A program made the position numbers and the translations under genes. Below are positions 23,434-43,262 of a stretch of DNA of 55,887 nt, in pieces; within the stretch, counting starts at the first letter, position 1, and each line of letters starts with the position of its first letter. The notes under the pieces are model-generated. The model was not told where the DNA came from and did not search any database. It worked only from the letters and a program-made list of their open reading frames with translations. Source of the stretch: Cellulomonas hominis (GTDB lineage: Bacteria; Actinomycetota; Actinomycetes; Actinomycetales; Cellulomonadaceae); assembly GCF_005239125.1 (NCBI RefSeq), contig NZ_SZYE01000006.1:1-55887 (forward strand), read 5' to 3'.

Positions 23434-23781
23434 ATGAATGCGCGCACGGTCGCCAGCAGTCTTCTAGTACCCGCATTGCTGGGCGGCTGCTCAGGCGCCG
23501 AGGCGGATCCGTATTTCGCTGCGCTCGAAGATGCGGGATGGGTCAACGAAGAGATGTCAGAACGTGAGCGCCGGCAGATGTACGAGGACATGGCTGCCGA
23601 CGTCTGCGCGGAGATGAGAGAATTGATGCTCGCCGGGTTCGACAATGAAGCGGTTGTTTATTCACTTCTTCGCAAGATCGACGGGAACGACCCGATGGGC
23701 GATCGGGCGGCGGGTACCCTCAACGCCCTCCTCGACTACCGCTGCGACGCGGGGCAAGCGAGCGGCCTCAAGGCGGAGTGA
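23434..23781 (+). CDS. Cargo lipoprotein, DUF732-like
   Basis: 115 residues on the strand opposite to its neighbours. The N-terminus MNARTVASSLLVPALLGGC is a lipoprotein signal with lipobox LGGC (lipidated Cys near residue 19). The mature part (YFAALEDAGW, then VCAEMRELMLAGF and LLDYRCDAG with two Cys about 50 apart) resembles the small helical DUF732 fold of actinobacterial exported proteins. It lies between tape measure and tail chaperone and its 3' end overlaps the chaperone frame by 14 nt. Codon use and G+C are clearly lower than in the neighbours. Outer-surface lipoproteins expressed by lysogens are a known route to superinfection exclusion; that role is inference. Confidence 0.75.
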   Translation: MNARTVASSLLVPALLGGCSGAEADPYFAALEDAGWVNEEMSERERRQMYEDMAADVCAEMRELMLAGFDNEAVVYSLLRKIDGNDPMGDRAAGTLNALLDYRCDAGQASGLKAE

Positions 23782-24501
23782 GCGCGCGCCGCAGGCGCGT
23801 GTCCGCGGACAGAAGCGACCAGATGCGGTCGCGCCACCACGGCCACGCCCGCACGAGCCCCGGGTCCTGCAGGTCGTAGCCGGCGTCGGCGAGGTCGGCC
23901 TCGACGAGCGACCAGCGCGCCAGAACATCGGCCCACCCGACCCGCGTGCCCTCGGGCTTCGCTGCGGTGCGGGCCGGCTTCAGCGACGGCGGGGCGCCCC
24001 GGTACCGCGGGTAGATGCCCGTCGCTGGGTCCGGCTCGCCGACGCCGTACGGGGCCCACGCGGCGACGTCGAAGACCCCGAGCCGGCTTCCCCCGAGGCG
24101 TCACCGCCCCCGTGCTGGGCGGCGAGGATCGCGTCGGCGGTCTCCTCGCCGACGGTCCAGTAGTACAGGGCGTACATCCCGAACATGTCGATGTCCGGGG
24201 CGCTCACGCCGTCGGCGACCATCTGGGCGTACACGTCGGCGCCGAGGGACAGCTCGGCGACGTCGGTCTCGCCGAGGGACTCGACGAGCGCCAGCGTCTC
24301 CGCGGGCACATGCGGGGCGCCGGCGCGCCCGCACGTTGGGCACTTCTCCAGCACCGAGGCGTACGTCGCGACGCCCACGGCGTTGATCGCGGCGAGCTTC
24401 AACCCGACGTCCTTCGACGGGGGACTGACGACGTACACGCGATCGCCGCAGGGCAGCTCGAGCGCGGGTGCGAGGAACTGGGTCAGGTCCTTCAGGGCCA
24501 C
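23768..24501 (-). CDS. Tail assembly chaperone with -1 programmed frameshift
   Basis: The short product runs from ATG 24501 (MALKDLTQFLAPALEL) to a stop at 23980 (173 aa), with a tail of repetitive Arg/Ser/Thr. A second, sensible reading begins in the -1 frame after a stop near 24,100 and continues VFDVAAWAPYG, GIYPRYRGAPPS, WADVLARWSLVEADL to a TGA at 23,768-23,770, giving a fused product of about 244 aa. The slip must occur in about 24,070-24,100; GGGGGAA at 24,088-24,094 (minus strand) is the best candidate, with GGGG at 24,077-24,080 as an alternative. Both forms are expected to assist tape-measure folding, as for lambda gpG/gpGT. Confidence 0.85.
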
Positions 24502-24536
24502 GGTGGTTCTCCTTGCGTGCCGGGCAGCCGGGTGGA

Positions 24537-24575
24537 GCGCGCGGGGCCGGACCCGGCTGTGCCGGCCCCGCGCGC
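24537..24575 (-). terminator. Intercistronic hairpin after the major tail protein gene
   Basis: Perfect 14-bp stem (GCGCGCGGGGCCGG with its complement) and 11-nt loop between the major tail protein stop and the tail chaperone start. Probably attenuates expression of downstream tail genes relative to the abundant tube protein. Confidence 0.6.
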
Positions 24576-24585
24576 GGTCGGGAGG

Positions 24586-25140
24586 TCAGTCGCCCTCGGA
24601 GTCCACCTCGGGCTCCGAGGGCCCGGTCGGGTCGTCTTCGGCGGCCGGGTTCGCGATCCGGCGGCGCCGGCCCTGGCCGGTGATGGAGAACGACCATCCG
24701 CCGATGTCGTCGTTCCCGGTGGTCTGGCGGTTCATCTGCACGGTGCCGTCGCCCTCGTACGCCTCGCGGGGGTTCGGCTCGCCGTCGGCCGGGTCGTCGT
24801 ACCAGCGGAACCGGCCGGTGGCCTTGTTGCCGACGGCGTCGGGCCCGGCCAGCTCCAGGAGCCGCTCCACCTCGGGCAGGAAGTCCCCGTCGGGCCGCCG
24901 GTGCTGCTGGACGGTGCCCGCCAGCGTCCAGGACTCCGAGACCTTCTTCTGGTTCGGGGCGCCCTTGTCGCGGTACGTCGCGGCGTCCTTCATCACGGGC
25001 GTGACCTGCGGGTCGATCGCGGACGAGAACCGCAGGTGCTGCCAGATCGGCGGGTCGGTCAGGCTTTCGGCGAGGTCGACGTCGAGCGCGTACTCGTAGG
25101 AGAAGCCCAGCTCGGTGTTCTCGGCGGTGGTCTCGGTCAT
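24586..25140 (-). CDS. Major tail (tube) protein
   Basis: 184 residues from ATG 25140. Beta-rich with SESWTLAGTVQQHRR, GRFRWYDDPADGEPN, DIGGWSFSITGQG and an acidic C-terminal tail. Position between tail terminator and tail chaperone is diagnostic. The ATG overlaps the preceding terminator gene's stop (4 nt). The following hairpin supports high-level, uncoupled expression. Confidence 0.85.
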   Translation of the reverse strand: MTETTAENTELGFSYEYALDVDLAESLTDPPIWQHLRFSSAIDPQVTPVMKDAATYRDKGAPNQKKVSESWTLAGTVQQHRRPDGDFLPEVERLLELAGPDAVGNKATGRFRWYDDPADGEPNPREAYEGDGTVQMNRQTTGNDDIGGWSFSITGQGRRRRIANPAAEDDPTGPSEPEVDSEGD

Positions 25141-25574
25141 GGGGTGCCTCCTCGGCGGGTGACGATGCGGTAGTTGTCGGTGCGCTCGTGGCGGCCGTTG
25201 TTGTCCGGCCCCAGGGGTGCGACGGAGACGCGCGCGCAGCGGGCCACCCGGATGCCGCCGAGCCGGGTGTGGTGGCGGGCGTGCAGCACGGCGAACACCT
25301 CGTCCGCGACCTGGTCGACGGCGTCCGGGCGGCTGGCGGCGCGGAACCGCAGCTGCACCGCGAACGTCCGGCGGACCTGCCGCGGGTCGGGGTCGTCGTC
25401 GACGTCGTACACGGTGACCGAGCACACGACGTCCGGGCTCGCCGGCACGGCCTTGATCGTCAGGGCGTGGTCGCCCGCGGCGTACGAGCCCTGCGGGCGC
25501 CACACGAGGCTGGTCGACGCGTCGAGGTGCTCCACCAGGGCGACCGCGACCGTGGCGACGGTCGGCTCGGTCAC
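25137..25574 (-). CDS. Tail terminator / tail completion protein
   Basis: 145 residues. ATVAVALVEHLDASTSLVW at the N-terminus, then RTFAVQLRFRAAS and VADEVFAVLHARHHTRLGG, a small alpha/beta layout common to tail terminators that cap the tail tube. It overlaps both neighbours by 4 nt. Identification rests mainly on order in the head-tail connector block. Confidence 0.7.
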   Translation of the reverse strand: MTEPTVATVAVALVEHLDASTSLVWRPQGSYAAGDHALTIKAVPASPDVVCSVTVYDVDDDPDPRQVRRTFAVQLRFRAASRPDAVDQVADEVFAVLHARHHTRLGGIRVARCARVSVAPLGPDNNGRHERTDNYRIVTRRGGTP

Positions 25575-25915
25575 CGCAGCTCCTGGCGGACGGCGTCGCC
25601 GATGAGCTGCTCCTGCGCGCGGCGGGTGCCCAGCAGCGGCCGCTCGAGGTACTTCGCGGTGCGCCCACGTGTGTGCCGCAGCGTCATGTCCTCGTGCTGG
25701 CGCACCGCGTACGGGGTGTCGAACGACACCGCGGCGACCGGCCCGGACTCGTCGACGGCGGTCGCGCCGGACCGGGCGAGGGTGCCGTCGTCGATCGGGA
25801 CGACCTGGAGGGACTCCGCCAGGACGTGCTCAGCGGCCAGCCGAAGTCCCCGCGCGGTGCCGCGTCGCACGGCCTCCTTCGCGGTGGCGCCTTCCCAGCG
25901 GATCGTCACGGACAC
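25571..25915 (-). CDS. HK97 gp10-like neck/tail protein
   Basis: 114 residues. VTIRWEGATAKEAVRRG, LAAEHVLAESLQVVPIDDGTLARSG and VSFDTPYAVRQHEDM match the gp10-like family pattern (PxDTGxLrxS and YAxxqHE-type motifs). It bridges the connector and the tail. Confidence 0.85.
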   Translation of the reverse strand: MSVTIRWEGATAKEAVRRGTARGLRLAAEHVLAESLQVVPIDDGTLARSGATAVDESGPVAAVSFDTPYAVRQHEDMTLRHTRGRTAKYLERPLLGTRRAQEQLIGDAVRQELR

Positions 25916-25927
25916 GGTGGCCTCCGG

Positions 25928-26254
25928 TCAGGTCAGGGCGAGCTCGTAGTGCTCGGGCGCGGGCGGGGTGTGGTGGTGCGCGGCGGACAGGACGACCGCG
26001 GTGCGCTCGTCCGGGGCGCCGGGACGGACCGTCACGCGCGACCCCACGGGCACGGGGCCGTCCTCGGGGCGCAGGAACACCCGCGTCGAGGACACGACCT
26101 CCTGGCCGGAGGCGTCGCGCACCAGCGTCGGCCGGTCCTCGACACGGCAGCGACGGACCGTGCGCGGGTCGGCGAACGACGCCCCCCAGCCGCCGTCACC
26201 CGTCTTGTCCTCCACGCGCACCGTGTGCGGAGTCAGCGCCCGCGGCAGGCTCAC
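25928..26254 (-). CDS. Head closure / head-tail connector protein
   Basis: 108 residues from GTG 26254, sharing GTGA with the stop of the previous gene. Contains TVRVEDKTGDGGWGASFADP, EVVSSTRVFLRPEDG and VRPGAPDERTAVVLS. Small beta-barrel-like pattern and position fit an SPP1 gp16-type stopper that retains packaged DNA. Confidence 0.7.
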   Translation of the reverse strand: MSLPRALTPHTVRVEDKTGDGGWGASFADPRTVRRCRVEDRPTLVRDASGQEVVSSTRVFLRPEDGPVPVGSRVTVRPGAPDERTAVVLSAAHHHTPPAPEHYELALT

Positions 26255-26664
26255 CACGGCGACGGCGCCCGGCCGGCGAGCCCCGCTGTCGCAAGGATCG
26301 ACACCGCCTCGGGGGAGTAGCGGGACTGCGCGGCCGACGCCGCGCCCACCGCGGTGCCGGCGCCCGTGCGGGTCAGCGCCGCGGTGCCCAGCGACATCGA
26401 CTGCCACCGCGCCTCGGCGCCGGAGACGTCACCCGTCTCGTCGAACCACAGGGCCTGGGCGCACGTCGCGTCGCGCAGGGCGTCGCTGACCGTGAGGTCG
26501 TTGGGGTAGCCGTCGTCGTCCACGGCGTACCGGGCGGTGAGCGTCAGCTCGTCGACCACCATCGACGCGCGTCGCAGGAGCGCGCGGGCGACCGCCTCGT
26601 CGAGCTCGACGTTCCACGGCTCGCCGGCCAGGTCGGACGGCGCGGCGTACATGCGCTGGGGCAC
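26251..26664 (-). CDS. Head-tail connector (adaptor) protein
   Basis: 137 residues, ATG 26664. Helical: LDEAVARALLRRASMVVDEL, then SDALRDATCAQALWFDETG and YSPEAVSILATAGL, the arrangement seen in gp6/gp15-like adaptors that bind beneath the portal. It overlaps the head-closure gene by 4 nt. Confidence 0.75.
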   Translation of the reverse strand: MPQRMYAAPSDLAGEPWNVELDEAVARALLRRASMVVDELTLTARYAVDDDGYPNDLTVSDALRDATCAQALWFDETGDVSGAEARWQSMSLGTAALTRTGAGTAVGAASAAQSRYSPEAVSILATAGLAGRAPSPW

Positions 26665-26685
26665 GGCCCCTCCGTTCTCGGTCGG

Positions 26686-26719
26686 GTCGGGTGCGGGCGG
26701 GAGAGCGCCCGCACCCGAC
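26686..26719 (-). terminator. Intercistronic hairpin in the connector region
   Basis: Perfect 14-bp stem GTCGGGTGCGGGCG with its complement and a 6-nt loop, between the HeH-domain gene and the adaptor gene. Confidence 0.5.
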
Positions 26720-26723
26720 CTGC

Positions 26724-27074
26724 TCAGGCGCCGCTCGGGTCCTGCGCGCCGGTGCTGCCGGTACCGAGCTCGACGGTGCCCGTCGCGCCGGTCGCGTCGT
26801 TGCCGGCGGCCTCGCGGGCGGCGGCGATGACGGCGAGCTTCTCGTCCTTGCGTTTCGCGCCGGCCAGGTCGACGTCCTCGCGGGCCGCCCAGGCGTCGAT
26901 CTGCGCGTTCGTCCAGGACTCGGCGGGGTCGCCGTCGGGAACCTGCGGCGGCTGCGACTCCGCCTGCGCGGCGCCGGTGCTGGAGACGTACCCGCGGCGC
27001 TCGTAGTAGGCGCGCACGCCGGGGTTGTCGGTGTCCGGGACCTGCTCGCCGGACGGGGACGTGAACGGGGGCAT
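26724..27074 (-). CDS. Small head protein with HeH/LEM-like motif
   Basis: 116 residues. The segment SWTNAQIDAWAAREDVDLAG and following KRKDEKLAVIAAA has the spacing of the HeH (LEM/SAP-like) helix-extended-loop-helix motif found in phage proteins directly downstream of the major capsid gene. The rest is Gly/Thr/Pro rich. Exact role unknown; possibly head decoration or connector recruitment. Confidence 0.65.
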   Translation of the reverse strand: MPPFTSPSGEQVPDTDNPGVRAYYERRGYVSSTGAAQAESQPPQVPDGDPAESWTNAQIDAWAAREDVDLAGAKRKDEKLAVIAAAREAAGNDATGATGTVELGTGSTGAQDPSGA

Positions 27075-27107
27075 GGTGTGGCTCCTCGGTGTTCGGGGGC
27101 GACGGGC

Positions 27108-27135
27108 GGCTGGCCGGGCGAGCGCCCGGCCAGCC
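27108..27135 (-). terminator. Hairpin directly after the major capsid gene
   Basis: Perfect 12-bp stem GGCTGGCCGGGC with its complement and a GAGC loop, starting 5 nt past the capsid stop codon. Confidence 0.6.
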
Positions 27136-27139
27136 GGGA

Positions 27140-28129
27140 TCAGCCCAGGACCTTGACGTTGCGCAGGACGCCCGCGCCGCGGGTCGACTTCAGGACGCCG
27201 GCGACCGGGCCCATCTCCATCTCGCCCTTCTTCACCGCGCCGGGCGCGGTGTAGTCGGGGCGGAACGTCTGCAGGAGCGGGCCGAGCACGCTGACGCCGT
27301 GCAGGGCGCGCAGCCCGAACTGCACGGCGTAGATGTCGGTGAGCCCGGTGACGCTCTCACCGCCGACGGTGCGGGTCTCGGTCGGGATGATCGTGCCCGT
27401 GCCCGCGGTGTTGTCGCCGAGGTCGACGATCACCGCGGTGCCGAACCGCTCGACCTCCCGGCCGAGGGCGTCCTCCGAGCGGGTGTAGTACCCGGCGCGC
27501 CGGCCGAGCGACCGGACGCGCGCCGCGCCCTTGTCGTTCGTGAGGATCGCGTCGGCGCCCCCGTTGATCGCGTGCACGAGCTGGTCGAGCAGGTCGATCG
27601 CGTCGTTCGAGGCACTGCGGTCGTCGCCGAGCGCCTCGCTCGTCCAGTCGGCGACGGTGTCCGCACCGATCTCGGTGATCGTGCCGGCCAGCGACTTGTC
27701 GAGACCGTCGAAGCCCTTGGTGTCGACGGCGGTGTCGCCGTTGATCAGCTCGTCCTGGAACCGCGTGCGGACGGAGATGCTGAGCTGCTCGAACTGGAAC
27801 GCCTCCTCGTTCGTCGCCGCCTGGCCGAGACGGGCCAGCGCGCGGTCGACGTTGAAGGAGCCACCGAGGGGCTTCAGGTCCACGGTGTACCGCTTGCGGA
27901 CCGCCTGGCCGGGGTCGTACTCGCGGTTGAACTCGCGGAAGGCGGCTGGGGCGGGCGTGACGAGCCGCGTGTACCCGTAGGTCAGCGTCGAACCGCCGCC
28001 CGAGGGGTTCACGCAGTCGTCGAAGGGGATCTGGTCCAGCAGCCAGGAGCGGCGGCGCAGATCGTCGATGACGGCGAAGTCGACGTCGTCCTGGGTGTTG
28101 ACCTGGGCGTCGGCGAGGGAGATGACCAT
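27140..28129 (-). CDS. Major capsid protein
   Basis: 329 residues from ATG 28129, with RBS AGGAGGCACC. Features typical of an HK97-fold capsid subunit: RRRSWLLDQIPFDDCV near the N-terminus, LTYGYTRLVTPAPAAFREFN, FEQLSISVRTRFQDELING, IDLLDQLVHAINGGADAILTN and YAVQFGLRALHGVSVLGP. Lies between scaffold and connector genes. The hairpin just after it would let it be expressed above the downstream genes. Confidence 0.9.
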   Translation of the reverse strand: MVISLADAQVNTQDDVDFAVIDDLRRRSWLLDQIPFDDCVNPSGGGSTLTYGYTRLVTPAPAAFREFNREYDPGQAVRKRYTVDLKPLGGSFNVDRALARLGQAATNEEAFQFEQLSISVRTRFQDELINGDTAVDTKGFDGLDKSLAGTITEIGADTVADWTSEALGDDRSASNDAIDLLDQLVHAINGGADAILTNDKGAARVRSLGRRAGYYTRSEDALGREVERFGTAVIVDLGDNTAGTGTIIPTETRTVGGESVTGLTDIYAVQFGLRALHGVSVLGPLLQTFRPDYTAPGAVKKGEMEMGPVAGVLKSTRGAGVLRNVKVLG

Positions 28130-28145
28130 GGGTGCCTCCTTGGGC

Positions 28146-28892
28146 TCAGTGCGACTGGCGCTCGATGGCGTCGTGGATGCTGGTGGGTCGTCCGGTGCGC
28201 TCACCGGTGCCGCCGGTCAGGTCCCGGCCGGAGCGGGGCGCCGCGACACGTGCGCGGAGCGTCTGGTTCCCGGTCACCGCGGCCTTCGCGGCGTCCGCGA
28301 CCTTCGTGGCGAAGTCCTCGGCGCCCGGGTCCAGCGCGGCGACCTTCGCCAGGAACGCGCGGGAGTCCGTCAGGGCAGCCGGGTCGCCGCCGTGCTGGCC
28401 GGCGGTCTCGTACACGGCGAGCCGGACGGCGAGGTCGCTGATGCGGGTGTCTTTCGCGGCGCTGCCGTCGCGGACGGTCTGCAGCTCGGTGGTGAGCTGC
28501 TCGACGCTCGGCGAGCCGCCGTCGTCGGTGATGAGGCCGATGGCCCGGCCGATCTCCTGGGTGAGGGTGCTGCGGGCCTCGTCGGCGGCCTGCTGGGCGG
28601 CGGCCGTGCGAGCGGGCTCGTCGCCCTGCCGCAAGGAGGCTACGAGAGCGCGCAGCTCGGCGGGGTCGTCCGGCAGTCCGTCCCCGGGCGCGGGCTGCTG
28701 CTCACGGCCGGTCGCGCCCGGGGAGGCTGCTGGGCCGGCGTCCGGCGTGCCGGTGCGGGCACCGGAGTCGCTGCCGGCGTCCGTCGAGCCGGCGGTGCCG
28801 GAGGAGCCGGCGTCGCCGTCGATGAACCGCAGCCGGGACAGACGCATCGGCATCCCGGGGGTGCGGGCGGGCCAGTGGACGGTCGTGCGCAT
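28146..28892 (-). CDS. Capsid scaffolding protein
   Basis: 248 residues. The N-terminal third is Gly/Ser/Thr/Asp rich; the rest is helical with coiled-coil character (RTAAAQQAADEARSTLTQEIG, LTTELQTVRDGSAAKDTRI). The charge pattern and position immediately upstream of the major capsid gene are standard for scaffolds. No protease motif is visible, so it is probably expelled or degraded by another protein. Confidence 0.75.
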   Translation of the reverse strand: MRTTVHWPARTPGMPMRLSRLRFIDGDAGSSGTAGSTDAGSDSGARTGTPDAGPAASPGATGREQQPAPGDGLPDDPAELRALVASLRQGDEPARTAAAQQAADEARSTLTQEIGRAIGLITDDGGSPSVEQLTTELQTVRDGSAAKDTRISDLAVRLAVYETAGQHGGDPAALTDSRAFLAKVAALDPGAEDFATKVADAAKAAVTGNQTLRARVAAPRSGRDLTGGTGERTGRPTSIHDAIERQSH

Positions 28893-28988
28893 GACGGTCC
28901 CTCCTGTGGGTCTAGTGAGGTGTCGGACCGCACGCGTACCGTGCGGCGCACACGCCGGTAAGGCGCCGGCGTGCGAGGGGGTGTAGGG

Positions 28989-29561
28989 ATGGACGCCGCG
29001 GCGTGGATCTCGGTTGTGGGCGCTGCTGTCGCGTTGGGCGTAGGCATCGCGAGTTGGTTCCAGCTGTCAGCCATGAAGGAGCAGACCGAGCTCCAGCGGC
29101 AGGTGCAGCGGGACGCCGCGACTCCGTACGTGTGGGTCGACTTCCGCACAGACCAGGCCCATGCATGGCTCGTGCAACTAGTCGTCAAGAACGAGGGCCC
29201 CACGGTCGCTGAGAAGGTCCGAGTCCAGATCGACCCGCCGGTGAACCGGGTGGGTAGCCGCGCGCGTGCGTCGTCCGAGTTCGGCGACCTCTCGGAGCTC
29301 GCCGCTCTGAGCTCGGGCATCACCTCCATGCCGCCGGGCCGGGAGATGCGGTGGACGATCGGGTCTTCACCTGACGTGCTGAAGGAGAAGGCGCTCGGCA
29401 AGCATCACGTCACGGTCACCTTCGAGGGGCCGTTCGGGCCCGTCGGACCCCTCGAGTACGACCTTGACTTCGCTGACTTCCCGGGGTCGGCTGTGCAGCC
29501 ACCGGGCTCGCTCAACCAGATTGCCGAATCCATCGACAAACTGACGAAGAGGATGTCTTAG
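28989..29561 (+). CDS. Cargo membrane protein with beta-sandwich-like domain
   Basis: 190 residues on the strand opposite to the head genes. ATG 28989 has an RBS-like GAGGGGGTG. An N-terminal transmembrane helix (WISVVGAAVALGVGIASWF, about residues 5-23) is followed by a basic coiled segment and an extracytoplasmic or cytosolic beta-type domain (WLVQLVVKNEGPTVAEKVRV, HVTVTFEGPFGPVG). The C-terminus NQIAESIDKL is helical. The tail overlaps the stop of the minor capsid gene. Architecture is shared with the cargo gene at 35,351. Family not recognised; superinfection-exclusion or defence role is inference. Confidence 0.7.
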   Translation: MDAAAWISVVGAAVALGVGIASWFQLSAMKEQTELQRQVQRDAATPYVWVDFRTDQAHAWLVQLVVKNEGPTVAEKVRVQIDPPVNRVGSRARASSEFGDLSELAALSSGITSMPPGREMRWTIGSSPDVLKEKALGKHHVTVTFEGPFGPVGPLEYDLDFADFPGSAVQPPGSLNQIAESIDKLTKRMS

Positions 29562-30625
29562 CGGGCTCGGCCGATCTGCTCCCGGCGCGGCGCCCGCCGC
29601 AGGTCCGGATGCGCGGCCAGGTGATCGCGCAGCCGCCCCTGCCACTGGCGGACCTTCGCCCGTGCGGCGCGCCCCGCCTCCGGGGTCAGCGCGAGCTGCT
29701 CGCGGCGCTTCCACTCCCGCACGCCGCGCTCGAGCCGCCGCTGCTCCTGGCCCGCGGCATACCCCGCCGGGTCGGGGCGTTCGACGTTCGGCGTCGTGAT
29801 GCCAGGGAAGTACGCCCCGACCGAGCACCGGCAGTTCGGGCCGAACAGGTGCCCGTCCGCGGTCGCCTCCCGCCAGGAGGTCACCTCGACCAGGCGCCCG
29901 TCGACCAGCACGCTGGTGGTGGCGCCGCTGATCGACAGCACCTTCCCGGCCTGCTCGTCGCACGACGCGCAGGCCCGCGGGCCGGGGATCGGGTACACGA
30001 GGTCGTGCCCCTGCTCGGTGAGCCCGTCGAGGTGACCGAGTACCGCGGCGCGGCCAGCGCCGGTCCGGGTTGCCATCTCGACGTACGACTCCAGCGTCCA
30101 CCGGCGGCCGGCCGCATCCCGGAACCCGGTGATCCCGCGGGCGAGGAGGTCGTCGAGCGCCGCCTGCGCGGCCTGGACCCGGGTGCTGGCGCCGAGCAGG
30201 ACCGGCGCGGTGGCGCGGGCCACGACCTCCCGGTAGGCGTCCGCGGTCGCCCGGAGCACGGTGGGGCGCGCGCCGATGACCTTCGTGAGCACGTCTTCGG
30301 CCAGTCGCCGCACCGCCGCCGGAACGAAGGCGGGCACCGCGGCCCCGGGCACGTCGGCGGCCGCCTCGCTGCGCCCCAGCCCGTACGCCTGGTCGATGAC
30401 GTCCGCGACGGCGGCCGCCAGGTCGTCGTCGAGTGCGCCGAGGTCACCGGCGACCGCTTCGCGCAGCGCCTGCAGCTCGGCGAGCTTGTTGACCGCCCAC
30501 GTCGGCGCGTCGATGCCGGCGGCAAGCCGGTCGCGGATGCGCTGCAGGATGACGAGCTCGGCGGCGGCGACCAGCTGCGTCACCTGGGCGGCGAGCCGGG
30601 CCCCATGATCAGGGCTGGTCGGCAC
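29558..30625 (-). CDS. Minor capsid protein (phage minor capsid 2 / MuF-like)
   Basis: 355 residues, ATG 30625, directly after the portal gene. The N-terminal half is helical; the C-terminal half carries CASCDEQAGKVLS and the conserved GHLFGPNCRCSVGAYFPG motif of minor capsid protein 2 / SPP1 gp7-type proteins. These proteins associate with the portal and are injected or help ejection. Its 3' end is convergent with, and overlaps, the cargo gene. Confidence 0.85.
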   Translation of the reverse strand: MPTSPDHGARLAAQVTQLVAAAELVILQRIRDRLAAGIDAPTWAVNKLAELQALREAVAGDLGALDDDLAAAVADVIDQAYGLGRSEAAADVPGAAVPAFVPAAVRRLAEDVLTKVIGARPTVLRATADAYREVVARATAPVLLGASTRVQAAQAALDDLLARGITGFRDAAGRRWTLESYVEMATRTGAGRAAVLGHLDGLTEQGHDLVYPIPGPRACASCDEQAGKVLSISGATTSVLVDGRLVEVTSWREATADGHLFGPNCRCSVGAYFPGITTPNVERPDPAGYAAGQEQRRLERGVREWKRREQLALTPEAGRAARAKVRQWQGRLRDHLAAHPDLRRAPRREQIGRAR

Positions 30626-30631
30626 CGCTGG

Positions 30632-32173: not shown

Positions 32174-32188
32174 CACGACCCCTCTCGG

Positions 32189-34343: not shown

Positions 34344-34368
34344 TGCCACCTGTCTCGACTCTGGCAGA

Positions 34369-34397: not shown

Positions 34398-34407
34398 GCG
34401 CTGGTCA

Positions 34408-35294: not shown

Positions 35295-35350
35295 GAAGTT
35301 CCTCCGGTCGGGCCTAGCGCCCGGACTCGAGACCAGCCAGGCTCGGCGTC

Positions 35351-35845: not shown

Positions 35846-36082
35846 TCGAGTCACCGCCGGTGCCACCCGATCCCCGCCAAGGCGAGCAGAACGAGCAGAA
35901 TCCCGCCCCGCGCCGATGGCGGCCGCGGCGTCGGCCCACGAGCGCACCGCAGGCTGGTGATGCCGTGGGCGACGCACGAAGTCCTCGCAGGACGGGTGCG
36001 CCCGCTCCGGCTCGGCGCCGAGTCCGTTCCGCTGGTGTAGCAGTTCCGCGGCGCGTCGGTCCCCGACGCTACGGTCCCGCTC

Positions 36083-36442: not shown

Positions 36443-36498
36443 GCGCCCGTCCACGGCCGTCAGAGACCGCTGACCTCGCGGATCGTCACGAGTCACAG

Positions 36499-36999
36499 TC
36501 ACGCCACCTCCTGCACGCGAACGCCGCCGGGAACGTTCGGCGACCCGCTCGCCTCGCCCGCGTCGAGTGGGTCGCCGTAGCCGGCACCGCGCAGGAGCTG
36601 CAGGGCGTCGGCGAGCTGCATGCGGATGACGAGTTGGTCGTGCAGAGGGGCGACGGCGAGGTCGGGCAGCGACCCGAGCCGCCACCATGCCCACCAGCGG
36701 TTTGCGTTGGCGGGCCCGACGCCGGCGCGCTGGGTGACGAGGAACGCGACGGCGGCGCCGGCGTGGAGTCGTTCCCGCTCGGTCTCAGCGAGCCAGGAGG
36801 CGATCATGCCGTCGGAGGCGTCCTTCGCGGCGGCGCCGCCCTTCACCTCGACGATGACGCCGGGGGCGAGGCCGATGTCGCCGCGGTCGTGGGCGCCGGT
36901 GAGGGTGAGCCGGTCGGCCCCGGGGAAGCCGCGGGTGCGGGCGGCGCGGACGACGGCGGTCTCGGCGCGGGTGCCGATGTCCTTGGGGCGATTGGCCAT
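36499..36999 (-). CDS. Holliday-junction-resolvase-like nuclease (PD-(D/E)XK)
   Basis: 166 residues. The N-terminus IGTRAETAVVRAARTRGFPGA followed by HDRGDIGLAPGVIVEVKGG gives the E, D and E-V-K metal-binding triad of archaeal Hjc-type and phage resolvases. The rest is helical. It would cut branched intermediates before packaging. An RBS (AGAGGACC) precedes ATG 36999. Confidence 0.85.
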   Translation of the reverse strand: MANRPKDIGTRAETAVVRAARTRGFPGADRLTLTGAHDRGDIGLAPGVIVEVKGGAAAKDASDGMIASWLAETERERLHAGAAVAFLVTQRAGVGPANANRWWAWWRLGSLPDLAVAPLHDQLVIRMQLADALQLLRGAGYGDPLDAGEASGSPNVPGGVRVQEVA

Positions 37000-37015
37000 G
37001 TCGGGGTCCTCTCGG

Positions 37016-37438
37016 TCAGTACGGCGGGACGTCGCCCGGCTGGACGGCGCCGTAGCGGGGCTCGGGCAGGGGGTCGAGGGTCAGGGGCGGCCGGTCGCAG
37101 TCGTGCGCGGCGAGGACGACGACGTGGTCGGCGGGCGGGAAGTCGCGGGCCTGGACGAAGCCGGGGATGTGCCGGGACGTGAGCTTGAGGCGGCCGGCGT
37201 CGATGCCCCAGAGCTGGTAGGTGGGGCGGGCGAGGATCACGCAGGCGGCTTCGAGCTGTGGGGTCAGCCGGTAGGGGTCGGCGATGCAGAGCGTCGCGCA
37301 GACGGGGGCGTCGTACCCGGCGAGGACGAGGCGCCGGCAGCGCGCGCACCAGCGGGGGACGGCCTTGGTGCCGAGCAGTCCGGGGTCTTGTCCGGTGCGC
37401 GTCGCGAGGGCGGCGAGCCAGTACGCCCGGGCGGTCAC
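37016..37438 (-). CDS. Putative zinc-binding phage protein
   Basis: 140 residues from GTG 37438 (GTGA overlap). WCARCRRLVLAG and the later CATLC and AHDCDRP give four or more Cys/His that could bind zinc. The C-terminal part (YQLWGIDAGRLKLTSRH, FVQARDFPPADHVVVLAAHDC) is conserved-looking. Located downstream of the primase in the replication block; role unknown. Confidence 0.65.
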   Translation of the reverse strand: MTARAYWLAALATRTGQDPGLLGTKAVPRWCARCRRLVLAGYDAPVCATLCIADPYRLTPQLEAACVILARPTYQLWGIDAGRLKLTSRHIPGFVQARDFPPADHVVVLAAHDCDRPPLTLDPLPEPRYGAVQPGDVPPY

Positions 37439-37677
37439 GGCGCACCGCCGTGACGGGTGACGCGTTGCGCCGGGTTCGCTCTCCTGCGTGTGTGCGCGCG
37501 CGTATGGGCTGGAACAGAGAGGAAAGCGTCACATGTGTCACACCCGTCACCCACGCCATGCACGCGGGACCCGTCACACGCGTCACTGCCTGCGCAAACG
37601 TGCGGCGTCGCCGTCACGAGAATCGGCGTGACGGGTCGGTGACGGGTCGGCGGATCGTGACGGGTCATGGGGGTCAC
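37435..37677 (-). CDS. Small ORF across the iteron region
   Basis: 80 residues with GTG start overlapping the primase stop (GTGA) and its own stop overlapping the next start (GTGA), so it is perfectly spaced for coupled translation. The sequence is unusual: repeated TRHxP-like motifs created by the GTGACGGGT repeats, and several Cys (DACDGSR, GDGCDTCDAF). It may be a genuine small gene, or an ORF kept open only to preserve coupling across the origin. Confidence 0.45.
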   Translation of the reverse strand: MTPMTRHDPPTRHRPVTPILVTATPHVCAGSDACDGSRVHGVGDGCDTCDAFLSVPAHTRAHTRRRANPAQRVTRHGGAP

Positions 37678-37720
37678 AGCACGCCGTCCTGGGTCCAGCG
37701 GTCGCTGCGCGGTGACGGGT
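37450..37720. repeat. GTGACGGGT iteron cluster, candidate phage replication origin
   Basis: Exact GTGACGGGT at 37,450, 37,628, 37,639, 37,657 and 37,712, inverted ACCCGTCAC at 37,542 and 37,569, plus near matches GTGACGCGT (37,458 and 37,733), GTGTCAC and CGTCAC between them and GTGACGGGC at 37,837. The cluster adjoins the primase-helicase gene, where phage origins are often found. Confidence 0.55.
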
Positions 37721-40187
37721 CCGGCTCGTCGGGTGACGCGTCGAGGAGCCGGATGCCGGCGAGGTACCGGTTGGTGTTGGACCGCTCGGGGATGACGTCG
37801 AATCGGGTGCGCAGCGCCGTCGTCATCGCCTTGACGGTGACGGGCTCCTCACCCTCGACCCGGCACCAGGTCTCGTACGCGGCGCGCAGCACGCCGGACT
37901 TCACCTTCAGGTGCTGGGCGCCGGCCGGGCCGGTCTCGCACTGCTCGGCGACGAACCGGCCGATGCTGTCCTGGTCGGTGGCGTAGGCGTCGGTGGCGGC
38001 GCGCACGGACGCGGGTTCGGTGAGGCCGTCGGCGAAGTAGTCGGCGGCGCCGCGGATCAGCCACGCCAGGATGGCGGGGCCTTCGTCTTCGACGAGGCGG
38101 TCCTCGAGGTCGGCGACGCGCTTCTCGGGCGGGACGGTGTGCTCGAACGGCAGCAGCCGCAGCCGCCGCCAGAACGCGGGGCCGCCGGCGCGGACAGCGG
38201 GTTGGTGGTTGGCGAGCAGCCACAGGGTGTGGGTGGGGGTGAAGGAGAACCAGTCCTGCCGCATGAACCGCCCGGAGATGACGTCGCGGCCGGTGAGCTG
38301 CTTGATCCTGGCCTCGGCGAACCGCTGCCCGTCTTCGAGCTCGGAGGTGGCGACGAGGCGGGCGCCGGCGAGTCGGGCGATCTCGGTGGGGTGGCCCTGC
38401 TGGTGGGTGGCCAGGAGCATCTCGGCGGGCGCGGAGATGCTGTACCCGTCGTCGCCGATGCCGATGAGCCGTTGGACGACGCCGATGAGGGTGGTCTTGC
38501 CGTTGGCGCCGGGGCCGTGGGCGAACGGCAGCACCTGCTCGAGGACCTGCCCGACGAGGGACAGGCCGAGCAGGCGCTGCACGTAGGTGGTGAGGGCGGG
38601 GTCGCCGGCGAAGGTGTCGGCGAGGAACGCGAGCCACCGGGCCGGCACGGCGGCGGGGTTGGGGGCGACGGCGGTGGAGCGGGTGTGCAGGGCGGCGGGG
38701 TCGGGGGTGGTGATGGCGCCGGTGCGGAGGTTGACGACGCCGTCGGGGGTGTTGAGCTCGTAGGGGCGGGCGTCGAGGTCGGCGAGGTGGGTGACGGTGC
38801 GGGGGTCGGTGCGGGCGACGGCGACCATCGCTTCGAGGCCGCGGCGGGACAGGGACTTGGCGCGGTGTGCGCGGGAGTCGCGGTCGGTGGCGCGCAGGTC
38901 GCGGGCGATGGCGCGGGCGAGCTCGTGGACGTGGCCTGCTTCGTCCCAGGTCCAGCGGTGCCCGTTCCAGGTGAGCCACTGGCCGCGCTGGGGGACGTAC
39001 CGGATGGTGGCGGCGTGCTGGTCGACGAGCCGGAGGGCGTTGCCGTCGTCGGTCTCGGTGTACGTGGTGGGCGGGGTCGTCGTCGCTGCGGGGGTGGGCG
39101 TCTTCGGCGTGCTGGTGTCGGTCGTCGTCGAGGTCGGCGTGTGCGTGCTGGTGGGCGTCTTGGTCGTGGGGGGCGAGGTCGGTGGGATGAGCCCGGCGAG
39201 GTCGTCGACCTGTTCGACGGGGCGGGCTTCTTCGGCGCGGCGGCCGTACCCGTCGGCGTAGAGCGCGCGGGCGGCGGCGGACAGGTCTCCGGCGTGCTCG
39301 AGGACGGCGTAGGCCCCGAGCTTCGTGTACGGCATCTCCTGGGTGAAGTCCGTGGAGGAGGTGAACACGAACAGCCGGTCGCGGTCGTCGGCGTGCCCGG
39401 TGGTGGCGGAGAACCCGTGGGTCTTGCCGGGGCGTGTCCAGTACCGGGTGCGCCCGCGCTGGGTGGCGAGGGTCCAGCCGTGGGGGGTGAGGATGTCGGC
39501 CCAGTCGGTGCGGTTCTCGTAGTCGTCGCCGGGGGTGATGCCGGCGGCGGGGTCGTGCGGGGCGGCCGGCCAGGTGGCGCCTGGCGGCGTCGCGGGCTCG
39601 GGCTGCTCGTCGACGGTGCGTAGCAGCGCGTGGAACGCGTTCCGCTGCTCGGCGGTCAGCACGGGGGCGGTGGCGGGGCCGCCGACGAGCCGCTGCCACG
39701 GGCGCCCGGAGGCGTGGTGGCGGGACGGGGCGACGACGACCTGGCCGCCCTCGCCGCGGGTCTCGGCGAGCACGAGCTTGTCGGCGCCGCGCGCGAGCTT
39801 GAGGTTGCCGGGGACGTCCATGCCGTCGACGCGGTAGTGGAAGTGGAACCCGCCGCTGGGGGACATCTCCACCCAGCCGGTCGTGACGAGCGTCCAGAGA
39901 TCGCCGAGGCCGGTGTCGTCGGCGAGGGCCTTCAGCTCGGGCAGGCGCGCCGCGGCGCGGCCCTCGATCTCGGTGAGCTCGGCGCCGCCGGACACGGAGC
40001 CCTGGACGACGCCGAGGTCGTGCGGGTCGTCCTCGCCGAACCAGGCGACGAGGTCGGCGTCGGTGGCGCGCTGGCGGGTGTGGTACTTCCACGACGGCAG
40101 GGCGGGCGCCTTGGACCCGTCGGTGCGGATCGGGATGATCGAGTAGCCGTGAGCGAGCAGGTCGCGGGCGGCGGCCAGGATGCTCAC
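37674..40187 (-). CDS. Prim-pol / D5-type primase-helicase
   Basis: 837 residues from GTG 40187. The N-terminal primase-polymerase domain (about 1-190) shows GYSIIPIRTDGSKAP, the acidic AELTEIEG, FHFHYRV and GGQVVVAPS. A Thr/Pro-rich linker follows around residues 340-385. The C-terminal superfamily 3 helicase has the D5 N-terminal region (LNTPDGVVNLRTG), Walker A GPGANGKTTL, Walker B-like LVATSELEDG, motif C HTLWLLANHQP and the Arg-finger region FWRRLRLLPFEH. It primes and unwinds the phage genome, presumably at the adjacent iterons. The plus-strand cargo gene at 40,217 has its promoter directly at this gene's start. Confidence 0.93.
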   Translation of the reverse strand: MSILAAARDLLAHGYSIIPIRTDGSKAPALPSWKYHTRQRATDADLVAWFGEDDPHDLGVVQGSVSGGAELTEIEGRAAARLPELKALADDTGLGDLWTLVTTGWVEMSPSGGFHFHYRVDGMDVPGNLKLARGADKLVLAETRGEGGQVVVAPSRHHASGRPWQRLVGGPATAPVLTAEQRNAFHALLRTVDEQPEPATPPGATWPAAPHDPAAGITPGDDYENRTDWADILTPHGWTLATQRGRTRYWTRPGKTHGFSATTGHADDRDRLFVFTSSTDFTQEMPYTKLGAYAVLEHAGDLSAAARALYADGYGRRAEEARPVEQVDDLAGLIPPTSPPTTKTPTSTHTPTSTTTDTSTPKTPTPAATTTPPTTYTETDDGNALRLVDQHAATIRYVPQRGQWLTWNGHRWTWDEAGHVHELARAIARDLRATDRDSRAHRAKSLSRRGLEAMVAVARTDPRTVTHLADLDARPYELNTPDGVVNLRTGAITTPDPAALHTRSTAVAPNPAAVPARWLAFLADTFAGDPALTTYVQRLLGLSLVGQVLEQVLPFAHGPGANGKTTLIGVVQRLIGIGDDGYSISAPAEMLLATHQQGHPTEIARLAGARLVATSELEDGQRFAEARIKQLTGRDVISGRFMRQDWFSFTPTHTLWLLANHQPAVRAGGPAFWRRLRLLPFEHTVPPEKRVADLEDRLVEDEGPAILAWLIRGAADYFADGLTEPASVRAATDAYATDQDSIGRFVAEQCETGPAGAQHLKVKSGVLRAAYETWCRVEGEEPVTVKAMTTALRTRFDVIPERSNTNRYLAGIRLLDASPDEPDPSPRSDRWTQDGVL

Positions 40188-40216
40188 GCTGTGGCTCCCA
40201 GGGCTACGGTGCGGAC

Positions 40217-40918
40217 ATGGACAGCGAAGAAAAGGGGCGAAGAGCGCTGTCTCAGGCGAAGGTGGCCGGGGCGGCGGGGCTCGTGGTTCTTGGTGATTCG
40301 GTGCTCGCCGCGCATGGGGTTCCTCCGATCACGGCACCTGTGCTCGCAGCCGGGAGTGGAGTCGTCTGGGCGGTCCGAGCGACGTTCCAACGTGGGGTGG
40401 ACGAGGTCGGCCGTGTGCTCGAATTGGCGTCCGGCGTCCCGCTTGAGGAAGCGATGCGGCGCGTGGCTGCGGACGGGGACACCTCGGCTGGCCTGTTCGC
40501 GGCCCTGAACAGCCTCCTCGACCGTCCCGGCGAGGAACGGGCAAGGCTGCTCGGTGCGATCCTGGGCGAGACCGTCAGTGACGAGGGCGTGAACGAGCAG
40601 GACGGCCTGCGGGTGTTGCTCGACCTCGCGCTTGGGCTCCAGGTCGGCCACCTGCGCGTCCTTCAGCTCGCCGAGAGCCTGCGCGGCGACGTGCCCCTGA
40701 GCGAGGCGTGGGTCAGCGCCCACCAGCTCAACGCCAACCTGCCAGGCTTCGAGCGCGTCCTGGGCGGCCTGATCGCGGCGTGTGTCGCCAACGGCACGCT
40801 CGTTCAGCGGCAGGCCGACGGCATGACCTACGGGCCCAGCGGGATGGACGAGTGGGCGGTGACGGAGCTGGGGGTCACGATCGTGGGGTTCCTGACGCGC
40901 TACGCGCCGTCCGCCTGA
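40217..40918 (+). CDS. Cargo protein with N-terminal membrane hairpin
   Basis: 233 residues. A hydrophobic region (AAGLVVLGDSVLAAHGVPPI and PVLAAGSGVVWAVRATF, about residues 18-56) likely forms one or two membrane helices; the remainder is helical and cytosolic-looking (EAMRRVAADGDTS, VLLDLALGLQVGHLRVLQ), ending in a winged-helix-like segment (AVTELGVTIVGFLTRYAPSA). TACGGT (40,205-40,210) ends 6 nt before ATG, a leaderless promoter that overlaps the primase start on the other strand. The opposite strand of the gene stays open as an extension of the next minus-strand gene, which misleads gene finders. Family not recognised. Confidence 0.75.
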   Translation: MDSEEKGRRALSQAKVAGAAGLVVLGDSVLAAHGVPPITAPVLAAGSGVVWAVRATFQRGVDEVGRVLELASGVPLEEAMRRVAADGDTSAGLFAALNSLLDRPGEERARLLGAILGETVSDEGVNEQDGLRVLLDLALGLQVGHLRVLQLAESLRGDVPLSEAWVSAHQLNANLPGFERVLGGLIAACVANGTLVQRQADGMTYGPSGMDEWAVTELGVTIVGFLTRYAPSA

Positions 40919-41037
40919 GCCGGTGAGGGTGCAGAGCCGCATCGGACCTTCTCGTGTCGTGGGTGGTGCTGGTACCTGGGTCCCCGCGGCCCGGCTCGGA
41001 CGGGCGGCGCGCCTGACGCGGCGCGGGGTGCTGCGGT

Positions 41038-41761
41038 TCAGGCCGCAGCGGGGGCGCCCCGAAGGACGGCGGATGACGCTGGCGTCAAGGCCGGTGGCGT
41101 CGGCGATGGTGGCGTCGTCGATGCCGAGGGAGATGAGCTGGCGGGCCTTCTCGCCCGCCTCGGCCGCCGGGGCCGGGGCGGGCGCCGCCGCGGCGGCCGC
41201 GAGGGTCGACTGCTGGACCGGCACCGGGGCCGGGGCGGCCTGCACCGGCTGGGTCACCGCCTGCGGCGTCGGGGCGGGCGTGGTGACGGCGGCCGGGGCC
41301 GGGTCGGGCGTCATCAGGGCTGCGTTGCCGCCCGGGACGTAGGTGGCCTGCCAGTACTTCCGGGACCGCTTGTCCTCCGGGTCCTCCCGGTGGGTGAACG
41401 TCAGCGTCAGGGTGCCGCCGACTTCCAGGCCCGGGGCCCCCGCGGCGCGCACGGCGTCACGGATCGTGCCCTTGAGGTACCGCCCTTCGACGAAGAGCCG
41501 GCGGGTGCCGTCGTCGTCCTCGATGGACGGGTCGCGCAGGTCGGTGGCGACGTCGACGTACAGCGCCATGATCGGGTCACCCGAGGGGTACGTCTTCGGG
41601 GTGCCGCTTCCCGGGTTGTTCTTGTCGTAGTCGCGCTCCTGGTACGCCTGTGGCGGGGCGACGATCCGGCCGACGAGCATGTCGCCGGGGTTCGGGAACT
41701 TCGCGGCGGGCACGCCGGCGCCGCCCATCAGGATCGCGTTGGCGTCGGGGGTCTGGGTCAT
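41038..41761 (-). CDS. ssDNA-binding-like phage protein, C-terminal frameshift
   Basis: Starts at ATG 41761 (MTQTPDANAILMGGAG). Residues about 20-150 look like an OB-fold (VGRIVAPPQAYQERDYD, FVEGRYLKGTIRDAVRA, LEVGGTLTLTFTH), followed by an Ala/Pro/Thr linker and a short HTH-like end (GIDDATIADATGLDASVI). In frame the ORF continues to 40,184 through the antisense of the cargo gene, giving 525 aa. In the adjacent frame the natural-looking ending AVLRGAPAAA stops at 41,038. A one-base insertion near 41,062-41,072 would explain this. Its place between a RecB-like nuclease and the primase fits replication or recombination. Confidence 0.6.
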
Positions 41762-41788
41762 AGTGGTCGTCTCCTGCGTCGTGCCGCT

Positions 41789-42652
41789 TCAGGCGGCCAT
41801 GGACCCGGCGCCGGCGGCGTCGGGGGTCGGGGGGATCAGCCCGGCGAGGTCGGTGCCGGGGGCGTGGTGCCCGGGCGCCGGGTGGGCCGGGACCGGCGCG
41901 TCGGGGAACCGGGCGCAGTCCCAGCAGTCCGGGTCCCGCGGCAGGCCGCCGATCCACGCTGTGACGGCGTCGGGCCCGAGGGCGGCCAGGGCGGCGAGGT
42001 TGGTGGCGATGCGTTCCGCGCGGGCGAGCGCGTCGACGGCGCGCTGCCGGTCGTGCGGCGCCGTCCACCACACGGCGTCGTCGAGGCTGGCGGCGTTGCG
42101 CGGCAGGAAGGCCACGGCGACGTGATCGACACGCACGCCGGCGTCGTTCCACCCCTTCGCGTACAGGTCCGCCTGGGTGCGGTACACCGGGGACGGGCCC
42201 GACTTCGCCTTGCGGAGCGTGCTGGCCCCCACGAGCTTCCAGTCGACGGTCATGCCGACCAGGAGGTCGACGAGGTCGGTGCTGCCCCAGATCTCCCGGC
42301 CGGCGATGTGCCCGACCATGACCCGCGCCTCGGTGAGGTACCGCAGGCCACCGCCGTGCTGGGCGCCCCGGGCGTTCTCGTGGCGGATGAACGCCTCCTC
42401 GACCCAGGCGTGCATCGCGGTGCCGAGGGTCGGCAGCCACGCCACGTCCCGCGACGTCGGCCAGCCCGCGAGCTTCGCGGCGAGGCAGTGCTCGCAGGGG
42501 GTGCCGATCTCGGACGGGCCGATCTCGACCTGCTGGGACCGGGGGTGGTTGACGATGGCGTCCTCGATGACCGCGCGGGCGTCCTTCAGGGCGGCGCGGG
42601 GGTCGCCGCCGGCGAACGGGGCGTACAGCTGCGGCAGATTCTGCGGAGTCAC
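41789..42652 (-). CDS. RecB/Cas4-like exonuclease with Fe-S cysteines
   Basis: 287 residues. The first Cys pair is IGTPCEHCLAAKL near residue 52; GSTDLVDLLVGMTVDWKLVG supplies the Asp and the D-x-K catalytic pair; YRTQADLYAKGW is the QxxxY motif; DPDCWDCARFP near the end gives two more Cys for an iron-sulfur cluster. This four-Cys PD-(D/E)XK design is the AddB/Cas4/RecB-like type used by phages for recombination. It precedes the ssDNA-binding-like gene. Confidence 0.9.
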   Translation of the reverse strand: MTPQNLPQLYAPFAGGDPRAALKDARAVIEDAIVNHPRSQQVEIGPSEIGTPCEHCLAAKLAGWPTSRDVAWLPTLGTAMHAWVEEAFIRHENARGAQHGGGLRYLTEARVMVGHIAGREIWGSTDLVDLLVGMTVDWKLVGASTLRKAKSGPSPVYRTQADLYAKGWNDAGVRVDHVAVAFLPRNAASLDDAVWWTAPHDRQRAVDALARAERIATNLAALAALGPDAVTAWIGGLPRDPDCWDCARFPDAPVPAHPAPGHHAPGTDLAGLIPPTPDAAGAGSMAA

Positions 42653-42679
42653 TGTGCACGCTCCGCTACGGTGCGCGGC

Positions 42680-43258
42680 ATGGACTTCTGGGAGGTGTCC
42701 CTCGGCGGGTGGCTCGGCGCGGTGTTCGGGTCGCTAGCGTCGATCGGGGTCGCGGTGTTCGTGCTGCGCAGGACCCTTCGGCATGAGCGTGAGCAGTCTG
42801 CGGAGCAGCGCGAGGCTGAGCGTCGACTCGGCGTGTGGCAGCACCAGCTTGAGTTGTTCGGAGAAGTGACGGCGAGGGCTATGACGCTGTCCTTGATTCC
42901 TACCGATCGAGATCGACTGATCGCGGTGACAGATGACTTCACCTCCGCGGTGCACCGGTGGCGCATGTACACCGACGACAGCCACGGGAGCTTTCCCCAC
43001 GACGTCGAGATCTTGGCGCTGCATCTGGTCCGAGGCGCGTGGCGCGCGCAGGAGGAGGAGAGAGCCGACGCGCGGCTCACCGCACGCACTCCTCGGGAGA
43101 GGGTGTACGTCGAAGCGCTGAGCGGGTTCGCGGCGGAGCTCACTTCGAGCGGTCGTGTCTGGCACCAAGACTCGGCCAAGCGGTCAGCCGTGGAGGACTG
43201 GGCTAGGCAGGCCGTGGCTGAGGCGCGTGCCTTGTGGCCGCGACGCGTGACTGCTTGA
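42680..43258 (+). CDS. Cargo membrane protein with coiled coil
   Basis: 192 residues. N-terminal transmembrane segment (WLGAVFGSLASIGVAVFVL, about residues 11-29) is followed by a charged coiled coil (RHEREQSAEQREAERRLG) and a helical domain (VTARAMTLSLIPTDRDRLI, FTSAVHRWRMYTDD). TACGGT (42,667-42,672) ends 7 nt before ATG. The stop lies 5 nt from the convergent stop of the next phage gene. The single-span, cytosolic-helical design is common in phage-exclusion proteins; family not recognised. Confidence 0.7.
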   Translation: MDFWEVSLGGWLGAVFGSLASIGVAVFVLRRTLRHEREQSAEQREAERRLGVWQHQLELFGEVTARAMTLSLIPTDRDRLIAVTDDFTSAVHRWRMYTDDSHGSFPHDVEILALHLVRGAWRAQEEERADARLTARTPRERVYVEALSGFAAELTSSGRVWHQDSAKRSAVEDWARQAVAEARALWPRRVTA

Positions 43259-43262
43259 CGGG

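Follow-up and report, generated by a model that had tools for sequence, protein, structure and literature searches.

Seven candidate morons opposing the lytic genes of a Cellulomonas hominis prophage, with host-type promoter signals and an exchangeable slot

What are single genes doing on the plus strand of a prophage whose structural and replication genes lie on the minus strand? We addressed this question in a 55,887-nt stretch of Cellulomonas hominis DNA (the window, which is the whole of contig NZ_SZYE01000006.1, assembly GCF_005239125.1), where a prophage of ~37.7 kb ends in an exact 28-bp direct repeat. Its plus strand encodes a repressor (46250), a pair of genes (46782 and 47843), an ImmA/IrrE-like peptidase (48518) and an integrase (48986), and also seven single genes set among the minus-strand genes and named here by their start positions. 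These seven are very probably morons read in the lysogen. Whether several of them serve mainly in exclusion or defence we regard as evenly balanced; the combined reading, in which host polymerase would read the morons in the lysogen and several would probably be exclusion or defence proteins, we hold to be somewhat probable.

Seven opposite-strand genes and their start-proximal signals

The original prediction described seven single plus-strand genes opposing minus-strand lytic genes, and all seven open reading frames (ORFs) were recovered at the predicted starts, each between called minus-strand genes. They occupy six backbone junctions, because 35351 and 36083 sit in one. Gene starts were picked with a home-made codon scorer. 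PHROGs named the tape measure, tail chaperone, head morphogenesis, portal, resolvase, primase and exonuclease genes of the backbone; we ourselves assigned the g-numbers and the names ssb, scaffold, major capsid and small and large terminase, in part by position. The GC content of the seven genes (0.621-0.702) departs from that of the 39 called backbone genes (0.700-0.767), as would be expected of morons.

23434-23781, plus strand: candidate lipoprotein moron of 115 aa with lipobox LGGC, between the tail chaperone and tape measure genes
28989-29561, plus strand: candidate moron of 190 aa with a predicted N-terminal membrane helix, charged linker and C-terminal region, a member of family A1, between the MuF-like and scaffold-position genes
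34089-34283, plus strand: candidate DUF1508 moron of 64 aa, soluble, between genes 34446-35294 and 33484-33981, with a strong hairpin downstream
35351-35845, plus strand: candidate moron of 164 aa with a predicted N-terminal membrane helix and a C-terminal region; a 34% homologue lies at the same junction in relative L020
36083-36442, plus strand: candidate multi-pass membrane moron of 119 aa, with no relative in 147 other genomes
40217-40918, plus strand: candidate moron of 233 aa with a borderline hydrophobic N-terminus; a 45% homologue lies in genome G065 outside any recognised prophage
42680-43258, plus strand: candidate moron of 192 aa with a predicted N-terminal membrane helix and a C-terminal region; homologues lie in L021 (same junction), G043 and G049

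A TACGGT hexamer had been reported 6-7 nt ahead of the ATG of 36083, 40217, 42680 and 48518, and this is exact at all four genes.

36070-36075, plus strand: TACGGT, putative leaderless −10 of 36083
40205-40210, plus strand: TACGGT, putative leaderless −10 of 40217
42667-42672, plus strand: TACGGT, putative leaderless −10 of 42680
48518-48934, plus strand: immunity-region metallopeptidase of ImmA/IrrE-like type (PHROG 87; Pfam M78 slightly under cut-off), with TACGGT at 48505-48510

The peptidase, located in the immunity region adjoining the integrase, is not counted among the insertions. The prophage has four instances of TACGGT-N6/7-ATG, always on the plus strand and never on the minus strand, and these account for four of its five TACGGT copies. 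Its chance expectation is 0.053 under a first-order Markov model of the prophage (maximum 1 in 300 runs). The looser TANNNT-N6/7-ATG was found nowhere else in the prophage and at 0 of 39 called minus-strand backbone genes, and a search of 23400-43380 for sigma-70 consensus promoters found none.

Host genes carry the same signal. In twenty 20-kb stretches taken from two genomes of the same genus, TANNNT stands at spacer 6 or 7 in 26 of the 207 first-in-operon genes, compared with a mean of 0.54 per position at spacers 16-50, and at spacer 6 in 10/113 other genes. TACGGT, with 4 cases, is the hexamer seen most often at these first genes. In Mycobacterium tuberculosis, according to PMC3898074, 73% of primary transcription starts have a TANNNT −10, centred 7-12 nt above them, and no −35 motif; the likeness here is in another genus and at prophage accessory genes. 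TACGGT looks like the host vegetative −10, and we read it as a putative host-type leaderless −10 because host genes peak at the same spacer and M. tuberculosis has the same TANNNT signal. With such a −10 abutting the ATG, the mRNAs of the TACGGT genes should begin at the start codon. Among opposite-strand accessory ORFs of the window and its relatives, 7/36 have TANNNT at spacer 6-7, with 17 hits spread over 23 other spacer pairs; this count kept ORFs with a codon score of at least 0, which excluded the window's own 42680. Transcription of 36083, 40217, 42680 and the 28989 slot (described below) by host polymerase in the lysogen is supported at the sequence level, each of the four having a predicted promoter of its own, as morons do. 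For 34089 we find a candidate −10 at 51 nt upstream.

Junctions and a promoter-leader slot among related elements

Syntenic elements were found by portal and primase searches. We queried 26 loci with window proteins and counted 16 as non-redundant (G037c52, G089, L006, L007, L010, L014, L020-L026 and L028-L030), leaving out L005 (the same as the G037c52 contig), L011 (coordinates and hits as L006) and L008, L009, L012, L013, L027 and L031-L034 (few backbone genes). Two of these metagenomic relatives, L020 and L021, come by their names from one sample series and L026 from a neighbouring one, and they are perhaps not independent. ORFs of at least 60 aa with a codon score of at least 5 (at least −8 in the window) were counted in gaps, only gaps from −300 to 5000 nt were kept, and the scan of the relatives for opposite-strand content took in gaps above 120 nt.

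The occupied junctions are the variable ones. In the relatives, gaps of at least 300 nt make up 35/49 at the six occupied junctions and 14/108 at fifteen others (Fisher p=7e-13, genes on either strand), a p-value that, like the others here, is only indicative because gaps count both strands and related elements share ancestry. Searches with tblastn at 1e-4 found 23434, 28989, 34089, 36083 and 40217 in none of the 26 loci. At g46|exonuclease, present in five relatives, L021 carries an opposite-strand 55% homologue of 42680, the L020 gap is 2 nt, and L024 and L026 hold lytic-strand genes. At ssb|primase (11 relatives), L020, L021 and L026 carry three different opposite-strand membrane-anchored proteins, with TACGGT, TAGCCT and TACCCT, respectively, 6-7 nt before the start, and the others carry lytic-strand ORFs. 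At resolvase|g38 (8 relatives), L020 holds the 34% homologue of 35351, and at tail chaperone|tape measure the single relative with the junction, G037, has an unrelated opposite-strand membrane protein. The comparison that the original prediction called for thus revealed what is expected of morons: presence varies and contents differ at the same junctions of related phages, and fixation is seen for no member of the seven across the syntenic relatives that we examined.

Isolated phages give a similar picture. No opposite-strand gene lies between terminase and tape measure in SV1, Jace, Raleigh and TinyDot, which have a related portal and represent 4 of 91 portal-matched records. This absence is not merely a lytic-versus-temperate difference, because SV1 and Jace carry an integrase. 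The replication region of the primase-related phage Peas is also without an opposite-strand gene. Viral-contig scans that used gene 27140-28129, gene 24586-25140 or A5 as query returned no relatives.

Accessory ORFs encoding membrane proteins or lipoproteins are more frequent on the opposite strand (10/32) than on the same strand (4/63, p=0.004), and remain so with the window genes removed (7/25 compared with 4/63, p=0.01). The 10/32 figure is an undercount because the ORF caller truncated 35351 and 42680.

The junction that holds 28989 has a further property.

28928-28988, plus strand: predicted promoter-leader of the 28989 slot, with a dyad over the −10, a hairpin leader and a G-rich ribosome site

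A perfect dyad, CCGCAC-GCGTACC-GTGCGG (28928-28946), spans the putative −10 TACCGT (28937-28942). A promoter-leader of ~70 nt is common to the window, G037, L020, L021, L024 and L026, with 31 of 83 alignment columns invariant. Its parts are a −10 (TACCGT, TACTGT or TACGGT) inside an inverted repeat, a GC hairpin leader in most copies and a purine-rich ribosome site. The six ORFs that follow range from 65 to 190 aa, and their best pairwise match has E = 0.001 over 36 residues (G037 and L021), the rest being 0.048 or weaker. Hydropathy does not mark the cargos of the five relatives, where listed, as membrane proteins. In L020 the ORF emerged solely by reading downstream from the promoter and is missing from the gap ORF list. 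The slot promoter is absent from the displayed stretch of L022 (no ORF listed in the gap) and L025 (a 111-nt gap, to which the ORF scan was not applied); L023 and G089, with no scaffold match, stand outside the comparison. By alignment, the MuF|scaffold junction is a swappable slot in which the predicted regulation is constant and the cargo is exchanged, in our judgement the most unusual element of the prophage. No account of a promoter-leader that stays constant while its ORFs are exchanged came up in our literature searches, none of which used that phrase, and absence is unproven.

The dyad at 28928-28946 shows paired changes of its arms in some relatives and is possibly an operator. A common phage operator was considered and rejected: the slot dyad is found once in the window and there is no six-base dyad over the TACGGT of 40217, 42680 or 48518. 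At 36083 a six-base dyad lies beside, not over, its TACGGT.

Products, their relatives and neighbouring features

Six of the seven products had been predicted to be membrane- or lipid-anchored. By hydropathy and lipobox, on which location was judged throughout, five are clear (four membrane proteins and one lipoprotein), a location shared with superinfection-exclusion proteins, and 40217 is only borderline, its best 19-residue hydropathy being 1.56. The seventh, 34089, is a soluble DUF1508 protein by Pfam. Charges flanking the helix fit an N-out/C-in orientation in 35351 (−1/+4), 42680 (−2/+2) and most of the related proteins listed. The statement that none of the six membrane or lipid-anchored products belongs to a nameable family holds up: Pfam, NCBIfam and PADLOC yield no match above weak chance level for the six non-DUF1508 proteins. 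In PHROGs, 28989 matches profiles of unknown function (E 2.2e-6 and 5.1e-4) and the other five are weakly matched, and 28989, 42680, 40217 and 46782 have no match at E 0.01 among 50,697 phage records. PDB profile searches with the A1 alignment and the 46782 pair were empty.

Codon scores are negative across much of 23434, 35351 and 42680. Homologues back 35351 (one weak genome hit and the 34% viral-contig relative) and 42680, and 23434 is without such backing; 23434 and 36083 each occur in 1 of 148 genomes, that of the window. An artefact of high-GC ORFs was rejected for 28989, 35351, 40217 and 42680 only, all of which have protein relatives, and 34089 is supported by its Pfam domain.

Homologues of 42680 (39-41%) lie on the integrase strand of another prophage type in G043 and G049, where the integrase match and the layout led us to call both elements prophages; viral contig L088 contains the G043 copy as well. 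Both homologues lie downstream of a same-strand SAD_SRA + HNH_2 gene, with one membrane gene intervening in G043. SAD_SRA + HNH_2 genes run against the strand of most of their neighbours in four prophage-like loci (L048:13389-14252, L051:4683-5450, L147:8294-9181 and L156:10970-11893). The G065 homologue of 40217 has a chromosomal setting without recognised phage genes and a TACGGT 6 nt before its GTG start.

Members of the A1 family of 28989 are 22-39% identical to the window protein and occur in 27/221 genomes of the bacterial family at E ≤ 0.001, the window's included, in prophage-like regions, in chromosomes and beside genes for relaxases, TrwC at L145 and one of MobA/VirD2 type at L154; in L155 some flanking genes are 4-6 kb distant. 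TANNNT stands at 6-7 nt in 8/25 A1 genes, whereas other spacer pairs average 0.42, so a putative leaderless promoter recurs across the family. A1 genes lie between PglX and an AlbA-type gene in a BrxC-PglX-PglZ (BREX) operon (G084), immediately behind the mod and res genes of a type III restriction-modification (R-M) system (G116), ~1 kb past a SLATT_4 + SMODS CBASS pair (G017) and two genes away from AbiTii (G118), contexts that form a selected sample because they were noticed by eye before confirmation. In the first three of these eye-picked contexts the A1 gene is in or near the BREX, type III R-M or CBASS operon. A1 relatives also lie beside GmrSD. The link of A1 to defence is suggestive, not established.

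Other features of the prophage concern its ends and immunity region.

12483-12510, no strand: putative attL, the left copy of the exact 28-bp direct repeat
50150-50177, no strand: putative attR, the right copy, directly beyond integrase 48986-50095
46782-47897, plus strand: gene for a 371-aa protein in the immunity region, overlapping 47843
47843-48448, plus strand: gene for a 201-aa multi-pass membrane protein in the immunity region, its membrane segments judged by eye

A pair homologous to the last two genes (29% and 32%) is found in the unrelated prophage G043, between its repressor and its integrase. The layout, an overlapping cytoplasmic-type and multi-pass membrane gene near a repressor, is like that of RexAB and of CarolAnn gp44-gp43, and membership in the CarolAnn/Rex group was rejected as there is no sequence similarity to CarolAnn gp44/gp43. 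A 74-77% DNA copy of the host gene just outside one end of the prophage lies at the opposite end (12647-12955 and 50933-51211), and the same host gene lies near prophage G049, whose integrase is 62% identical. A minus-strand open frame (40184-41761) runs from the ssb-like gene across 40217, with codon bias favouring mainly the part before ~41000. Just past 40217, ARAGORN calls a tRNA at 40980-41058 (plus strand) with an undetermined four-base anticodon, probably a chance hairpin. A very stable hairpin at 34303-34344, between the convergent genes 34089 and 34446, is likely a two-way terminator. A scan for T-run terminators found 5 compared with 3.3 expected, near background.

Readings of the insertions and their meaning

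In the mechanism we propose, accessory genes would have been added at a few tolerated junctions of the lytic minus-strand array, oriented with the repressor and integrase. In the lysogen, with the lytic operons silent, the host housekeeping polymerase would read them constitutively. An N-terminal helix is predicted to anchor four of the products in the cytoplasmic membrane, the bulk of each probably being cytoplasmic, and one product would be lipid-anchored outside. There they could meet a second phage at DNA entry and act in superinfection exclusion or defence. If each cargo had its own target range, the turnover of cargo at constant sites and with constant signals would be explained.

Several observations weigh against this reading. 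Neither 23434 nor 35351 has TANNNT at 6-7 nt before the start. An unusually strong downstream hairpin is found only at 34089 (rank 0.007 out of 150 random ones, compared with 0.17-0.99 at the other six genes), and a clear charge bias is absent in 28989 (−1/−1) and 36083. The gap counts include genes on either strand and non-independent elements, and relatives L021, L023, L025 and L026 have lytic-strand accessory membrane genes. PADLOC matches none of the seven. The four best defence contexts of A1 were chosen by eye out of seven and then confirmed, and unselected A1 neighbours (14 further loci) gave ~5/61 PADLOC matches at E ≤ 1e-30, the 5 counting the family list as five different proteins, compared with 3/120 for random genes (p=0.12). 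Finally, the terL|portal and MuF|scaffold gaps of the Amycolatopsis-type relatives L006, L007, L010 and L014 hold the same small opposite-strand genes, an indication that cargo can be fixed. Fixation of the same genes in all relatives, named in advance as telling against morons, is therefore seen for other genes in these four relatives but not for the seven. The earlier proposal of exclusion or defence is plausible for 28989, from the BREX, type III R-M, CBASS and AbiTii neighbours of its relatives, but the other genes have little or no functional support.

The products could instead serve general lysogenic conversion (envelope, stress or signalling), a gain in host fitness unrelated to other phages. 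Membrane and lipoprotein products would suit such a role, as would the lack of PADLOC hits and the G065 stretch around the 40217 homologue, in which no defence gene was recognised by eye. We think it rather unlikely, given the defence neighbours of the 28989 family and the SRA-HNH genes upstream of 42680 homologues in two prophages. Were the seven part of the lytic programme, as lysis genes, late regulators or antisense control of the structural operons, their convergent ends could give antisense RNA, and both the scarcity of terminator-like hairpins and the weak match of 36083 to a holin profile (E 0.011) would find a place. That none is fixed among the relatives examined, that three have predicted host-type promoters, that the four isolated phages lack opposite-strand genes from terminase to tape measure and that the 28989 and 40217 families also occur outside recognised phages make this highly improbable. 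Orphan insertions under little selection, at junctions that tolerate extra DNA, would account for the restriction of 23434 and 36083 to one genome, the few relatives of 35351 and the weak codon scores of three genes; we judge this very unlikely, as the frames of 42680 and 35351 are kept at 32-56% identity and promoter spacing is maintained across divergent copies.

The reading as lysogen-expressed morons finds likenesses in known systems. According to PMC10884400, the moron Tab of Pseudomonas prophage JBD26 is a prophage-transcribed single gene within the late operon, on the opposite strand with its own promoter and always at one junction. Other traits set it apart (83 residues, a position between the small and large terminase genes, the tape measure protein as target, an anti-Tab partner), and the likeness is one of description. 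The CarolAnn gp43/gp44, Sbash and Charlie defence genes are, according to PMC6426606, prophage-expressed and variable among related phages, and several are membrane proteins, with the Charlie protein described as excluding DNA injection; CarolAnn 43/44 differ in being located by the repressor and not among structural genes. SNIPE, a membrane-bound nuclease acting at DNA entry (PMC13190303), has a similar single N-terminal membrane helix with the N-terminus outside and the remainder cytoplasmic, but has DUF4041 and GIY-YIG domains, neither of which any of the seven matches in Pfam. The gene STMMW_20121 of Salmonella ST64B lies, according to PMC7067206, antisense to lytic genes and is transcribed in lysogeny from its own promoter; it is one gene measured by RNA-seq, whereas here there are seven, known from sequence alone.

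A broader idea, which we offer tentatively, is that slots with a conserved promoter-leader and an ORF exchanged as a unit, together with a rotating repertoire of mainly membrane-anchored proteins, may form a bank of cassettes that serves a membrane branch of anti-phage defence not described so far; A1, with a C-terminal domain outside Pfam, would be shared with BREX, type III R-M and CBASS neighbourhoods and with conjugative elements. Single opposite-strand morons are already known from ST64B and JBD26 (PMC7067206, PMC10884400). Beyond these precedents are the presence of seven in one prophage, three of them with a putative leaderless −10 abutting the start, and one slot with a constant promoter-leader. 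The finding yields a testable set of uncharacterised proteins predicted to be membrane-anchored, one family of which is seen beside known defence systems, and suggests a rule by which lysogen-expressed genes of high-GC actinobacterial prophages may be recognised: TANNNT standing 6-7 nt ahead of a start codon on the strand that runs against the lytic genes.

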